Source: Bacteroidota bacterium (GTDB lineage: Bacteria; Bacteroidota; Bacteroidia; UBA8524). Taken from it: a DNA stretch of 64,000 nt. The notes beneath the pieces are model-generated. The model was not told the DNA's origin. It ran no database searches and was given only the letters and a program-made list of their open reading frames with translations. The position numbers and the translations under genes were made by a program. Below, piece by piece: positions 21,999-35,141 of this stretch. The stretch's first letter is position 1, and the number at the start of each line of letters is the position of its first letter. The stretch covers positions 101,820-165,819 of the forward strand of contig WBUH01000010.1 in assembly GCA_008933805.1 (NCBI GenBank), given 5' to 3'.

Positions 21999-22326
21999 GT
22001 CATGCTGAACTCGTTTCAGCATCGAACTCACAATTTACGATTGATACCAATGAGATCCCGAAACTAGTTCGGGAAGTCTGGCAACCGCACCCTTCGGCAG
22101 GCTCAGGAAACCATCCGCACTAACCCCACTGTCAAATTGATCGCAGCGAAATTTCCTATCGCAACTTTGCGAACACGACGCTACAACACATTTGTTATAA
22201 GATGCTTCCTTCGTCAGCATGACAGATTGGGCTTGCAATGCTTGCACCCCGTCATGTTGAACTTGTTTCAACATCGCAATACCAATTCACGCTAACTACC
22301 AATGAGATCCCGAAGCGAGTTCGGGA
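21999..22326. repeat. Pair of 76-bp dispersed repeats plus inverted related unit
   Basis: Two 76-bp copies in the same orientation occupy 21999-22074 and 22251-22326. Each begins GTCATGyTGAACTyGTTTCA and ends with an inverted repeat TCCCGAA-N5-TTCGGGA; the ends are well conserved and the middle varies. Between them, 22201-22223 (GATGCTTCCTTCGTCAGCAT and GAC) is an inverted related unit, and 22090-22107 carries CCCTTCGGCAGGCTCAGG, the reverse of the repeat type at 47837. This repeat type is widely seen between genes in Bacteroidota. It fills most of the 451-bp gap 21943-22393. Confidence 0.8.
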
Positions 22327-27939: not shown

Positions 27940-27981
27940 TTTGATTATCTCTAAAGGATTAAAAATCCTTTTCAATTTATA

Positions 27982-28019
27982 TAAACACGAAGCGGGACTG
28001 ACGTCCCGCTTCGTGTTTA
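27982..28019. terminator. Bidirectional terminator / palindromic element
   Basis: A perfect 17-bp stem, TAAACACGAAGCGGGAC (27982-27998) with GTCCCGCTTCGTGTTTA (28003-28019), closes a TGAC loop. It sits between the 3' ends of def and the convergent TonB receptor gene and could terminate both. T-tracts are short, and the core GGGAC..GTCCC recurs in the palindrome at 34776-34821, so it may belong to the same repeat class. Confidence 0.6.
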
Positions 28020-28057
28020 ATTATAGCAGTAATTGGGTGTCAACCCTTTTGTTTCCC

Positions 28058-30755: not shown

Positions 30756-31032
30756 GTCGGTGCAAAGCAACACAAAAAATCCCAGAGTGCTTACACAATT
30801 TTAACATAGTGCCCATACCCCACTGTAAATGTGTTTCTTCAAGTTACGGTGTTACTTAGTTACACGGTTACCGTGTTATTTTTGTTACGCACTGCCCAAG
30901 GGTTTGCGGGTTTGGGTTGTATAAAGGGTGGTTACAGCTTTCAAAGAACTATGTCCGATGAAGAGTAATTGGCAGAAAATTATAAATGAACCTGCCCCCA
31001 ATAAATCAATTGAAATTATACTGATTTTACTT

Positions 31033-31111
31033 GTTATACCGACGGGCATAAAGCCCGCCTCTTGTAAAATGGTTCGTCCCGAATGGTTTTAAACCATTCG
31101 GGACGTTATAC
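31033..31111. repeat. Palindromic intergenic element flanked by GTTATAC repeats
   Basis: Part of the intergenic gap 30756-31156. CGGGC-ATAAA-GCCCG (31043-31057) is followed by CTCTTG and then a 15-bp stem with a single-base loop: CGTCCCGAATGGTTT (31075-31089), T, AAACCATTCGGGACG (31091-31105). The unit is bracketed by GTTATAC at 31033-31039 and 31105-31111. Elsewhere in the gap I see a small hairpin ACACGGT-T-ACCGTGT (30862-30876) and CTGAAT-TTTAT-ATTCAG (31121-31137), which may help terminate the minus-strand gene at 31157. No ORF is present. Confidence 0.6.
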
Positions 31112-31156
31112 TCAAAAGAACTGAATTTTATATTCAGGCAAATGTAAAAGAGAAGC

Positions 31157-31939
31157 TTACTCTATCACCTCTTCCTCCCCTTTTACATCAAGGTTGTAGA
31201 AGAAACCAACATTTACCCCTACTGAAAGTAAACGGTATTTTAAATCGCCCGAAGTAGTATTAAACAAGGGCACGGTAAGCATAGGCTGAGTGATAAAGCC
31301 CAACTTGTTTGAATAATTATAGTTACCCCTAAAACCCAGCATTCCGCTAATATTGGCAAAATTGGGTCGCAGGTAAGTGTTTTTAAGATTAAACGAGCGG
31401 TCGTTATCAATTGTAAAACCCTTTAGTCGCACAGCAACACGGTCTTGCAGCAGAAAATTCAACGATGCCCCGTAGCTCACAAAAAACTCCCAGTGCTTTG
31501 ATTTCTTTTGGTTGAAGTACACACGACGGTTTAATAACGCAGGGATATCCAAGTAATCAAACACGTAATTCAACTCAGCCGTTGGCGAAGGAATGGTTAA
31601 AATGGTTTGATCCAGCGGTTCTAAATCAGGATGAATAACCGTTTTGGGCAGCAAGTTGCCCACTACCTTCACAAACCCTGTATTGGTGTATTGAAGCCCG
31701 ATTTGCAACGTAGTGTTTTTGCCCAACTCTTTTTGGTATTGCAAGAACACAGAATACCCTAAACGGTTTTTCTCTGAAGTTGACAATGAATCGTTGCGCT
31801 TCACCGACTTACTATTCGAAAACCGAAACGTGTATTGCGGCTGAAAGGTAGCTGCTATGTAATTGTATTTGTGCTGGGTTTGCGCAAAGGCAGCCACAAC
31901 AGCAAAAAGCGATACAGCAAGCAGGATACATTTTCTCAT
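31157..31939 (-). CDS. Outer-membrane beta-barrel protein of unknown function
   Basis: A 260-residue exported protein (signal MRKCILLAVSLFAVVAAFA) with alternating amphipathic strands such as LGYSVFLQYQKELGKNTTLQ and LSVGVNVGFFYNL. These are typical of the OMP_b-brl family of small 8-12 strand barrels. It ends with an acidic tail, KGEEEVIE, rather than a terminal aromatic residue. No catalytic motif is seen. It lies 10 bp downstream of valS and is probably co-transcribed, but a functional link is not evident. Confidence 0.7.
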   Translation of the reverse strand: MRKCILLAVSLFAVVAAFAQTQHKYNYIAATFQPQYTFRFSNSKSVKRNDSLSTSEKNRLGYSVFLQYQKELGKNTTLQIGLQYTNTGFVKVVGNLLPKTVIHPDLEPLDQTILTIPSPTAELNYVFDYLDIPALLNRRVYFNQKKSKHWEFFVSYGASLNFLLQDRVAVRLKGFTIDNDRSFNLKNTYLRPNFANISGMLGFRGNYNYSNKLGFITQPMLTVPLFNTTSGDLKYRLLSVGVNVGFFYNLDVKGEEEVIE

Positions 31940-31949
31940 AGGTTCGTTT

Positions 31950-34595
31950 TTAGTTAAGAGCCGCTAAGTTGTCATTTAGCAGCCTCAGTTTTGCTTCGGC
32001 ATCTGCTTTTTTCTGGCGTTCGCGTTCCACAATATCCCCTTTGGCATTTGCTACAAACTTTTCGTTACTCAGTTTGGCATCTACCGATTTAAGGAAACCT
32101 TGCAGGTAGCTTATTTCTTCTGCAATTTTAGCACGCTCTGCAACAGGGTCAATACTCTCTTCTAAAAATACGTACAACGCATCGTTTTTAACCAACAGTT
32201 GCAACGCTCCTTGGGGTTTTTCGGTTAAAAACTCCAACTGCGAAACATTGGCCAGCTTGCGGATAATGTATTCAAAACTGCGGTAAGCGGCAGCGGTGGT
32301 ATCGTTTTCACATACTAAAGCCGTTTTCAGTTCGTCTTTATGCGACATTCCCTTGCTGCTGCGCAGGTTGCGCATTTCGGTAATAAAGTCTATTGCAAGC
32401 GATGAAATGGCTTCAACGCCTTCTTTCACAGTAGGGTAATCTTCAACAATGATGGGTTTGGCCGGATTACCGTCGTTCAAATCGTGGTAAAGCTCCTCAG
32501 TGATAAAGGGCATAAACGGATGAACGATTTTCAGTAATTCTGAGAAATGGGCAATAGTAGCATCAAAAGCACCGCGGTTAATGGGTTTGCCGTATTCAGG
32601 CTTCACCATTTCAAGATACCAGGCACAGTAGTCGTCCCACACCAGCTTGTAAACAGCCATTAGAGCCTCGCTAAGGCGATATTCTTTAAACTTGTCCTCT
32701 ATATCCTTTAAGCCTTCGTTAAGCTTGTAGGTAAGCCATTTCGATGCTAATTGGTTAGCTGCTACAATCTCTGCATCCACCGCACTGTCTTCTACCACTT
32801 CCCAACCTTTTACCAAACGGTAAGCATTCCATATTTTGTTACAAAAATTACGGCCTTGCTCCACTTGGCTAATATCGAACATTACATCATTGCCCGCCGA
32901 CGATGAAAGCAGCATGCCCATACGCACACCATCGGCACCGTATTGGGCAATTAAATCAAGCGGGTCGGGTGAGTTGCCCAATTGCTTGCTCATTTTGCGG
33001 CCTTGCTTGTCGCGAACAATCCCTGTAAAATATACGTTCTTAAACGGTTTTTCGCTCCTGTATTCGTAGCCCGCCATTATCATACGCAACACCCAGAAGA
33101 AAATAATCTCGGGCGCGGTAACTAAATCGTCAGTTGGATAAAAAGCTTTTATATCATCGTTATTAGGGTCTTCAAACCCGTCAAACACGCTGATAGGCCA
33201 CAACCATGATGAGAACCAAGTATCCACAACGTCTTCGTCTTGTTTCAGATGTTGGATGTCAGATGTTGGATATTGGGATTTATATTTATCGAGGGCTTCA
33301 TCGTGGGTGGCGGCAACCACATAGTTGCCTGCCTCATCATACCATGCAGGTATACGCTGACCCCACCACAACTGGCGCGATATGCACCACTCACGGATAT
33401 TCTCTACCCAGTGGCGGTAGGTATTTTTAAATTTGGCAGGGTGAAACTTAATTTCATCGTCCATTACCGCCTGCAATACTTTTGGGTTCTTTTCAATGAA
33501 TTTCTTCATATCCACAAACCACTGCTTGCTTAGGCGGGGTTCAATCACAGCATCGGTACGCTCGCTGTAACCTACGCTGTTTTTAATGTCTTCAATCTTA
33601 TTTATCTGTCCGGCTTCTTCAAGGTCTTTCACAATCTGCTTGCGCACTGCAAACCTATCCATGCCTACATAATATCCTGCTATCGAAGCTATAGTACCGT
33701 CTTCGTTAAAAATATCAATGGTATCAAGCTTGTGCTTTTTGCCCAGTTCAAAGTCATTAATATCGTGGGCAGGGGTTACCTTTAAGCAACCGGTACCAAA
33801 CTCAATATCAACGTACTCATCAAAAATTACAGGTACTTCGCGGTTCACCACGGGCACAATTACCTTTTTGCCTTTCAAATGAGCATATCGTTCGTCGTTA
33901 GGGTTCACGCAAACAGCAGTGTCACCCAACAAGGTTTCGGGACGGGTGGTAGCAATGGTTAAGTAACCATCTTCACCCGCAATTTTATAATTGATGTAAA
34001 ATAATTTCGATTGAACGTCTTTGTGGATTACCTCTTCATCACTTACCGAGGTTTTTGCCGAAGGGTCCCAGTTTACCATCCGCTCACCGCGGTAGATAAG
34101 TCCCTTCTCATACAAATCAACAAATACATTAATTACGGCATCGCTCATCACGGGCTCCATCGTAAATCGGGTACGGTCCCAATCACAACTGGCGCCTAGT
34201 TTCTTTAGCTGTTCAAGTATTATTCCGCCGTATTTTTCTTTCCACTCCCAAGCGTGTTCCAAAAACTTCTCACGGCCTATTTCAGCTTTGTTAATGCCTT
34301 GCTCTTTCAGCATTTTTACCACCTTAGCTTCCGTAGCAATACTGGCATGGTCGGTACCGGGCACCCACACAGCTTCTTTGCCCATCATGCGCGCACGGCG
34401 GGTAAGAATATCCTGTATGGTATTGTTTAGCATGTGCCCCATGTGCAACACACCCGTTACGTTGGGCGGGGGAATGACCACACTGTACTTAGGTTTTGGT
34501 GAACGGGCATCGGCTTTAAAATAGCCTTTGTCCATCCAGTATTTATACCATTTGTCTTCTACTTCTGCGGGGTTATATGTTTTTGAAAGTTGCAT
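31950..34595 (-). CDS. valS: Valyl-tRNA synthetase
   Basis: An 881-residue class I aminoacyl-tRNA synthetase that charges tRNA-Val. The HIGH signature is PPNVTGVLHMGHML near residue 40. The editing CP1 domain includes TTRPETLLGDTAVCVNP, and the KMSKS signature is GRKMSKQLGNSPDPLD near 530. The C-terminal anticodon-binding and coiled-coil arm ends with AEEISYLQGFLKSVDAKLSN. Length is normal for the family. The 315-bp region upstream is packed with palindromes. Confidence 0.97.
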   Translation of the reverse strand: MQLSKTYNPAEVEDKWYKYWMDKGYFKADARSPKPKYSVVIPPPNVTGVLHMGHMLNNTIQDILTRRARMMGKEAVWVPGTDHASIATEAKVVKMLKEQGINKAEIGREKFLEHAWEWKEKYGGIILEQLKKLGASCDWDRTRFTMEPVMSDAVINVFVDLYEKGLIYRGERMVNWDPSAKTSVSDEEVIHKDVQSKLFYINYKIAGEDGYLTIATTRPETLLGDTAVCVNPNDERYAHLKGKKVIVPVVNREVPVIFDEYVDIEFGTGCLKVTPAHDINDFELGKKHKLDTIDIFNEDGTIASIAGYYVGMDRFAVRKQIVKDLEEAGQINKIEDIKNSVGYSERTDAVIEPRLSKQWFVDMKKFIEKNPKVLQAVMDDEIKFHPAKFKNTYRHWVENIREWCISRQLWWGQRIPAWYDEAGNYVVAATHDEALDKYKSQYPTSDIQHLKQDEDVVDTWFSSWLWPISVFDGFEDPNNDDIKAFYPTDDLVTAPEIIFFWVLRMIMAGYEYRSEKPFKNVYFTGIVRDKQGRKMSKQLGNSPDPLDLIAQYGADGVRMGMLLSSSAGNDVMFDISQVEQGRNFCNKIWNAYRLVKGWEVVEDSAVDAEIVAANQLASKWLTYKLNEGLKDIEDKFKEYRLSEALMAVYKLVWDDYCAWYLEMVKPEYGKPINRGAFDATIAHFSELLKIVHPFMPFITEELYHDLNDGNPAKPIIVEDYPTVKEGVEAISSLAIDFITEMRNLRSSKGMSHKDELKTALVCENDTTAAAYRSFEYIIRKLANVSQLEFLTEKPQGALQLLVKNDALYVFLEESIDPVAERAKIAEEISYLQGFLKSVDAKLSNEKFVANAKGDIVERERQKKADAEAKLRLLNDNLAALN

Positions 34596-34624
34596 ACGAA
34601 CCGCGAAAATACGGATTTTTAGCG

Positions 34625-34847
34625 ACGGGTGTTAAACCCGTTGTTCTCACAATGGAGTTTTCTCAATAGCGGCAGGTTTTATACCTGCCGAAGCTAGATA
34701 AACATTTCGGCGCGCATAAAGCCGCTTCTTGCGCAAGGGTTCTTTTTAGATGGGGTTGAAACCCCATCTTGTTACAATTACCTTCCGGCAAGGGACTTAA
34801 GTCCCTTGCCGGAAGGTAATTACAAAAGCGACAGGTTTTAACCTGTC
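34625..34847. repeat. Cluster of six short palindromes between valS and atpC
   Basis: Within the 315-bp gap 34596-34910 I count: ACGGGT-GTTAA-ACCCGT (34625-34641); CGGCAGGT-TTTAT-ACCTGCCG (34670-34690); CATAAAGCC...CTTGCGCAAG (34715-34738); AGATGGGGTT-GA-AACCCCATCT (34748-34769); a 46-bp loopless perfect palindrome (34776-34821, core AAGGGACTTAAGTCCCTT); and GACAGGTT-TT-AACCTGTC (34830-34847). Arms are unrelated in sequence but share a design: GC-rich arms, AT-rich centre, 0-5 nt loops. No ORF is present. Confidence 0.8.
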
Positions 34848-34850
34848 ATA

Positions 34851-34885
34851 CAAAACAAAAAAGCCGCCTGTAAACAGGCGGCTTT
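34851..34885 (-). terminator. Intrinsic terminator of atpDC
   Basis: AAAGCCGCCTGT (34860-34871) pairs with ACAGGCGGCTTT (34874-34885) around AA. On the minus strand the stem is followed by TTTTGTTTTG. It lies 25 bp past the atpC stop. It is also the seventh palindrome of the 34.6-34.9 kb cluster. Confidence 0.85.
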
Positions 34886-34910: not shown

Positions 34911-35141
34911 TTAAGTAAGTACTATCACTTTGTTTTCAAGTACCTCAATAATCCCACCGTTAATATCAAAGCTGTGGGTACCTTCAGCATCCACCACACG
35001 CACTTTACCTGCATTTAAACTGCTGATAATGGCGGCGTGGTTATTAAGCACCTCAAACGAGCCTTTGCTTCCGGGTACTTTCACACGGCTCACTGTGCCG
35101 CTGTATAATACCTTATCGGGGGTGATGATTTCTAATTGCAT
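34911..35141 (-). CDS. atpC: ATP synthase F1 epsilon subunit, short form
   Basis: A 76-residue epsilon subunit consisting only of the N-terminal beta-sandwich (MQLEIITPDKVLYSGTVSRV, and GSFEVLNNHAAIISSLNAGK). The C-terminal two-helix inhibitory domain of the approximately 135-residue proteobacterial form is missing, as is common in Bacteroidota. It therefore probably cannot perform the helical-domain ATPase inhibition. It lies 32 bp after atpD, with which it forms a two-gene operon separate from the other ATP synthase genes. Confidence 0.9.
   Translation of the reverse strand: MQLEIITPDKVLYSGTVSRVKVPGSKGSFEVLNNHAAIISSLNAGKVRVVDAEGTHSFDINGGIIEVLENKVIVLT

Follow-up and report, generated by a model that had tools for sequence, protein, structure and literature searches.

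Palindromes in the valS–atpC spacer of a Bacteroidota genome: a cluster of REP/REPIN-like elements and their probable TnpA_Y1 subclass 1.2 transposase

The 315 bp spacer between valS (31950–34595, minus strand) and atpC (34911–35141, minus strand), within the 64,000-nucleotide stretch of DNA analysed here (the window), carries a cluster of palindromes. These palindromes form a cluster of REP/REPIN-like elements; they do not represent a novel palindrome class. The spacer is probably a landing site for such elements, and its one complete three-hairpin unit (unit B) is probably the cognate repeat of a TnpA_Y1 transposase with the subclass 1.2 signature, encoded on contig C1 of the same genome.

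All seven palindromes listed by the initial annotation were found at about the places given, at 34625–34641, 34670–34690, 34728–34737, 34748–34769, 34776–34821, 34830–34847 and 34860–34885, and their number is far beyond chance. When hairpins with loops of up to 5 were counted in the spacer and in 1000 dinucleotide shuffles of it, the spacer had seven with a stem of at least 5 (shuffle mean 1.05, maximum 6), six with a stem of at least 6 (mean 0.36, maximum 3) and five with a stem of at least 7 (mean 0.11, maximum 2); none of the 1000 shuffles reached the observed number at a minimum stem of 5, 6, 7 or 8. In a 400 kb sample of the genome, intergenic DNA contains 1.33 hairpins of stem ≥7 per kb versus 0.11 in shuffles, and four or more of them occur together in only one of 195 intergenic regions, which makes the spacer cluster exceptional. 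The annotation had also allowed that such clusters might be as frequent in shuffled sequence, or that each palindrome might be a terminator; 34860–34885 is the only clear terminator. This palindrome (11 pairs, then TTTGTTTTG on the minus strand) is, judged from its sequence, the intrinsic terminator of atpC and stands outside the repeat-element design; read from 34885 to 34860, it alone in the spacer combines a G+C-rich stem with a following T run.

The initial annotation had taken the seven palindromes for a single series that shares architecture without sequence. A BLASTN search of the spacer against its own genome gave 58 matches, contrary to that claim, and these fall in two blocks (34748–34847 and 34656–34726); the supposed series comprises two repeat families, a lone hairpin and the terminator. 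The lone hairpin (34621–34641, plus strand; ACGGGT-GTTAA-ACCCGT, 6 bp stem) has an AGC foot tag and weak matches elsewhere in the genome, and shows a weak match (34618–34695, E = 0.004) to R1, a covariance model of the block 34748–34847.

That block is the complete family B unit (plus strand; R1 match at 34744–34853, 123.6 bits, E = 6e-21 on the window). Unit B is about 100 bp long and consists of a short hairpin, a linker, a 46 bp perfect palindrome, a second linker and a second short hairpin, the outer hairpins being AGATGGGGTTGAAACCCCATCT first and GACAGGTTTTAACCTGTC last. Hairpin H1 (34748–34769), AGATGGGGTT-GA-AACCCCATCT, has a 10 bp perfect stem and a tip that is conserved in other copies. 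The central palindrome (34776–34821) is a 23 bp stem with no loop; its tip GGACTTAAGTCC and the AATTAC of its base (AATTACC/GGTAATT) are common to other copies. A linker with the foot tag ACAAAAGC, an AxAG tag (34822–34829, plus strand), precedes hairpin H3 (34830–34847, plus strand), GACAGGTT-TT-AACCTGTC, an 8 bp stem in which 96.7% of cells are paired over 30 copies. When right halves are aligned on the hairpin centre, position −20 is A in 45 of 45 and position −19 is G in 36 of 45. The tag of family B is usually AAAAGC or AACAG and not the 5′ tetranucleotide GTAG/GTGG expected at the foot of a REP hairpin. Each half runs through TAAT, a spacer, the AxAG tag, a few free bases and a hairpin with the tip GGRTTnnAAYCC; since the two halves are built alike in mirror image, with the same tag and tip, unit B resembles a REPIN, that is, two inverted tagged hairpins, with the difference that a long loopless palindrome sits between them.

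The block 34656–34726 (minus strand) is a partial unit of family A, which recurs in tandem arrays on contig C5. It comprises a hairpin at 34670–34690 with an AATAGC tag and a decayed hairpin at 34706–34726; BLASTN aligns it at 80% identity over 64 nt to C5:73164–73227 and C5:73398–73461, and its hairpin part is 94–97% identical to several genomic loci. Hairpins of a related design adjoin the transposase gene on contig C2. The arrays on C5 of the source genome (G000), at about 31000–31750 and 73100–73650 (L208, L209), have a period of about 234–245 bp and include family A hairpins. Two other three-hairpin units in the window match R1 more weakly than 34748–34847: one at 27947–28055 with the variant tip GGGACTGACGTCCC (E = 1.4e-6) and a family A-like one at 31035–31143 with CGTCCCGAATGGTTTTAAACCATTCGGGACG in its centre (E = 9.5e-5). 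A further hairpin repeat lies at 22002–22326 (ATGCTGAACTCGTTTCAGCAT and TCCCGAAACTAGTTCGGGA, two copies each); as comparable hairpins are found again in the 400 kb genome sample, and a relative (G010, L078) has a similar sequence upstream of valS, it may be a widespread Bacteroidota repeat.

Over the source genome, R1 gave at least 123 matches on both strands, or at least about 67 distinct sites after merging of the strands, these being lower bounds because scoring covered the top 150 of 2352 candidates; the window unit scores best. None of 20 genomes of relatives has an R1 match. Among the copies read, 54 of 55 lie outside open reading frames, and 12 of 52 placed copies lie in convergent spacers versus 26 of 200 in the background, a preference for gene ends too weak to claim. 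Family B has many dispersed, extragenic copies, and two of its units flank a Y1 transposase gene in the same genome, the features expected of a REP/REPtron system. The valS–atpC gene order is not kept in 20 relatives, and no empty site was found by joining the flanks of family B copies in the sequence searched; neither approach revealed an excision or insertion event for family B, which counts against the REP/REPIN-like reading.

In their middle part, the arms of the central palindrome vary freely in sequence and keep their pairing. Identity between copies is 97% at the tip (k = 1–6), 76% at the base (k = 17–21) and 32% in the middle (k = 7–16). That arms differ completely, as first described, is therefore true of the middle of the central arms, but the outer tips (GGRTTnnAAYCC), the A(N)AG tags and the central tip and base are common to the copies; the accompanying suggestion that fold-back shape is what is copied or selected finds support in the same middle stretch, which is almost always paired. 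In an alignment of 30 copies (A2), 94.6% of cells are paired compared with 77.8% after shuffling, and double-changed cells number 192 compared with 51; for the central arm the figures are 97.3% paired and 128 double changes compared with 31, and its pairing falls to 46% when the partner column is slid by one. In 55 copies read directly, 536 of 550 pairs at k = 6–15 are Watson–Crick, with four G·T and six A·C, and all four pair types are found at most of these positions; A2 gives the cleaner figure, since the 55 copies were picked with a pairing threshold and A2 without one. As wobble pairs are no commoner than their mirror mismatch, the pairing looks to be maintained in DNA rather than in RNA. 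The closest copies, differing at one or two positions, show 16 changes in both arms and six in one arm, so that most are compensated already, and transversions (238) are at least as common as transitions (193). At one locus (L175, G000:C2:385360–388469), three family B copies share almost the same flanks and probably arose by recent local duplication; they carry uncompensated changes in the outer hairpins and one in the centre. The perfect arms of old copies may reflect selection on the fold or shape, or hairpin-templated repair between the arms; template switching is a known route to perfect stems (PMC8794818).

The initial annotation had noted that the window contains no Y1 transposase gene, and we find the same: the genome encodes three Y1 (HUH) transposases, all outside the window, on contigs C1, C2 and C3, each with hairpin repeats on both sides of its gene. 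One complete family B unit lies upstream of the C1 gene (305257–305682) and another, similarly oriented, lies downstream; R1 detects both. The C2 gene stands between three-hairpin units belonging to a second sequence family, and a third family supplies tandem hairpin repeats on either side of the C3 gene. Identity to the C1 protein is 60% for the C2 protein and 45% for the C3 protein, and each gene is present in one copy. The HUH motif (DHVH) is intact in all three proteins, which all carry the TnpA_Y1 subclass 1.2 signature Y---Q--HH (YIQNQQKHH, YIQNQQQHH and YIRYQEKHH). The C1 protein matches the transposases of IS608 and ISDra2. All three score 80–95 bits against the NCBIfam IS200/IS605 model (NF033573), above its cut-off of 55, and 30–38 bits against the RAYT model (NF047646), below its cut-off of 80, which rules out a canonical RAYT assignment. 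With three Y1 transposases in the genome, one of them flanked on both sides by unit B, the earlier choice of REP elements and RAYTs as the closest known idea was right in kind; the proposal of a wholly undescribed class went too far, the element being REP/REPIN-like and paired with a transposase from a subclass for which no such partner was known.

Hairpins accompany subclass 1.2 genes across the phylum. Loci were taken from 30 genomes of relatives and from GTDB genomes, and 89 of them, mostly from Bacteroidota, have the full Y---Q--HH motif; they are the best matches to the query and not a random sample of the subclass. Perfect hairpins with a stem of at least 7 were counted in two sets of intergenic DNA from the same contigs, one up to 400 bp from the gene and the other, the far set, at distances above 800 bp. 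Over the 89 loci their density is 4.5 per kb near the genes versus 0.88 per kb far from them, about five times higher, with 1.9 per locus compared with 0.17 in shuffled flanks. At least one such hairpin lies within 400 bp at 66 of the 89 loci and three or more at 27; the 23 loci that have none, about a quarter, count against the REP/REPIN-like reading. With the source genome left out there are 151 hairpins in 36.0 kb near and 42 in 48.5 kb far (p = 6e-24), or 39 to 11 by locus (p = 5e-5). Upstream and downstream flanks have a 16-mer in common at 38 of 83 loci, compared with 1.8% of mismatched loci and none of 69 far flanks. Seven loci from other organisms (L097, L099, L109, L111, L119, L132 and L147) also carry short-long-short triplets, one example being AAATGGTTAAAACCATTT, then TGCATAGCCCGTGGTTTAAACCACGGGCTATGCA, then AAACCGTTTTAACGGTTT. 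The pattern CCNNGGTTNNAACCNNGG is found 47 times in Cnuella takakiae, 30 in Larkinella knui, 25 in Flavobacterium sp. Root901 and 14 in F. antarcticum, and at most twice in any control. Several other genomes have the flanking triplet at the transposase gene and nowhere else, a distribution expected of IS ends or of a lone REPtron, and this counts against the REP/REPIN-like reading. Arrays of a ∼52 bp CGCCCC hairpin repeat, at a subclass 1.2 gene and elsewhere (L153 and genome G042, Chitinophaga vietnamensis), are a tandem, non-triplet form of the association. Subclass 1.2 genes with hairpins nearby were also seen in assemblies named Spirochaetes, Saccharibacteria and Anaerolineae (L091, L137 and L143), reflecting either horizontal transfer or misbinned contigs.

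The units could alternatively be non-autonomous remnants of IS200/IS605-type insertion sequences, either solo ends or MITEs, which ordinary IS transposition has moved rather than a domesticated REP system. We consider this unlikely, but we retain such readings because dispersal varies and the triplet is found only at the gene in some genomes, and the proteins do score as IS200/IS605 transposases. Against them, the genome holds three single-copy paralogues (45–60% identical) instead of a gene-bearing element in several near-identical copies, the flanks of the C1 gene are whole triplets in direct repeat and not distinct left and right ends, and solo copies far outnumber genes.

It is highly unlikely that the host keeps the palindromes as transcription terminators or to stabilise the 3′ ends of mRNA. 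Apart from the clear terminator at 34860–34885, the only T-rich tail is a weak one in unit B, at H3 on the minus strand (34848–34829), and the other hairpins have no T tract; ten of the 52 placed copies lie between divergent genes, a share equal to background, and G·T is no commoner than A·C among the 550 pairs of the central stem, so nothing points to selection for pairing in RNA. As copies are not confined to gene ends and most hairpins have no T tract, termination is not the general role of family B. A structured regulatory RNA or small-RNA family, for which the strong fold (z = −12.4) and the covariation might speak, is exceedingly improbable: an Rfam search gave 19 weak matches with none at the gathering score, unit B scores on both strands and adjoins a transposase gene, and wobble pairs are not in excess. 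Chance clustering would suit only CTTGCGCAAG, a palindrome with a 5 bp stem that is by itself at chance level, and we give it a negligible probability; it is refuted by the shuffles, the BLASTN matches and the R1 copies at dozens of sites.

Under the preferred REP/REPIN-like reading, unit B would fold into three hairpins when single-stranded, for example on the lagging-strand template, and TnpA would recognise the AG foot tag together with the tips of the hairpins, with the remainder needed only as a double helix. Most likely, by analogy with REP/IS200-type systems, TnpA would use its Y1 tyrosine to cut and rejoin the folded unit; this would spread copies that lie mainly between genes, and we infer that unit B transposes. 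A bolder and more tentative proposal, possible but in our judgement doubtful, is that subclass 1.2 constitutes a phylum-wide Bacteroidota REP system with a three-hairpin substrate, and that the variable middle of the palindrome arms stays perfect through hairpin-templated copying in which one arm serves as template for the other, perhaps during its own single-strand processing, and not through base-by-base selection. Unit B offers a likely DNA substrate for HUH nucleases that in 2018 were separated from IS transposases, their close kin, as lacking both IS properties and REPs; the function of subclass 1.2 thereby becomes testable by a simple strand-cutting assay. The central palindrome, with a near-random middle, almost perfect pairing, dozens of diverged copies and no wobble bias, is a natural data set that bears on whether template switching or selection keeps stems perfect (cf. 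PMC8794818).

To judge from the literature searched, neither the three-hairpin unit nor its association with TnpA_Y1 subclass 1.2 has been described before; nothing was found there on flank palindromes in other genera or on REP-associated transposases in Bacteroidota, subscription journals and preprints being outside the search. Numerous REP-like sequences in Bacteroidota are described in a 2025 survey that makes no mention of transposases (PMC12306157). The CGTC-tagged repeats (PMC3733652), compared by description only, are likewise palindromic and occur in Bacteroidetes among other phyla; unlike family B, they were reported without association with a transposase gene. With the IS200/IS605 family (IS608, ISDra2) there is a homologous HUH-Y1 nuclease in common, and the subterminal DNA hairpins of these IS are read in single-stranded form; the present system differs in having no multi-copy gene-bearing element and whole triplets in direct orientation on both sides. 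The description of TnpA_Y1 subclass 1.2 in 2018 (PMC6006769) fits the transposases in the Y---Q--HH motif, a length of about 140–160 amino acids, low copy number and a mostly Bacteroidota distribution. That description has the subclass generally without typical terminal secondary structures ('REP: no'), whereas hairpin repeats flank most of the loci examined here and are dispersed in some genomes; the hairpin search of that survey was automatic and aimed at GT[AG]G-tagged hairpins (PMC6006769), a tag that family B hairpins do not carry. Atypical, non-GTAG structures that flank the gene and recur in the genome are known from TnpA_Y1 subclass 2.6 and class 3, and subclass 2.6 is also mostly found in Bacteroidetes; both differ from the C1–C3 transposases by motif (Y---NP and Y----Q without HH, respectively; PMC6006769). 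The closest parallel is with the REP/BIME/REPIN elements and their RAYT (TnpA_REP) transposases (PMC2817692, PMC3116915, PMC8266576). Like these, unit B is short, intergenic and palindromic, exists in dozens of copies and has a conserved foot tag and inverted pairs, and a single-copy HUH-Y1 gene is flanked by repeats of lineage-specific sequence. It departs from them in its AxAG rather than GTAG tag, which counts against the REP/REPIN-like reading, and in being built of three hairpins, the central one a long palindrome with no loop; the transposases, below the RAYT cut-off, have Y---Q--HH and not the class 2 motif Y---NP. The known contacts of TnpA_REP with the loop, stem irregularities and GTAG tag (PMC8266576) would, by analogy, fit the fixed tip and tag and the free stem of unit B.
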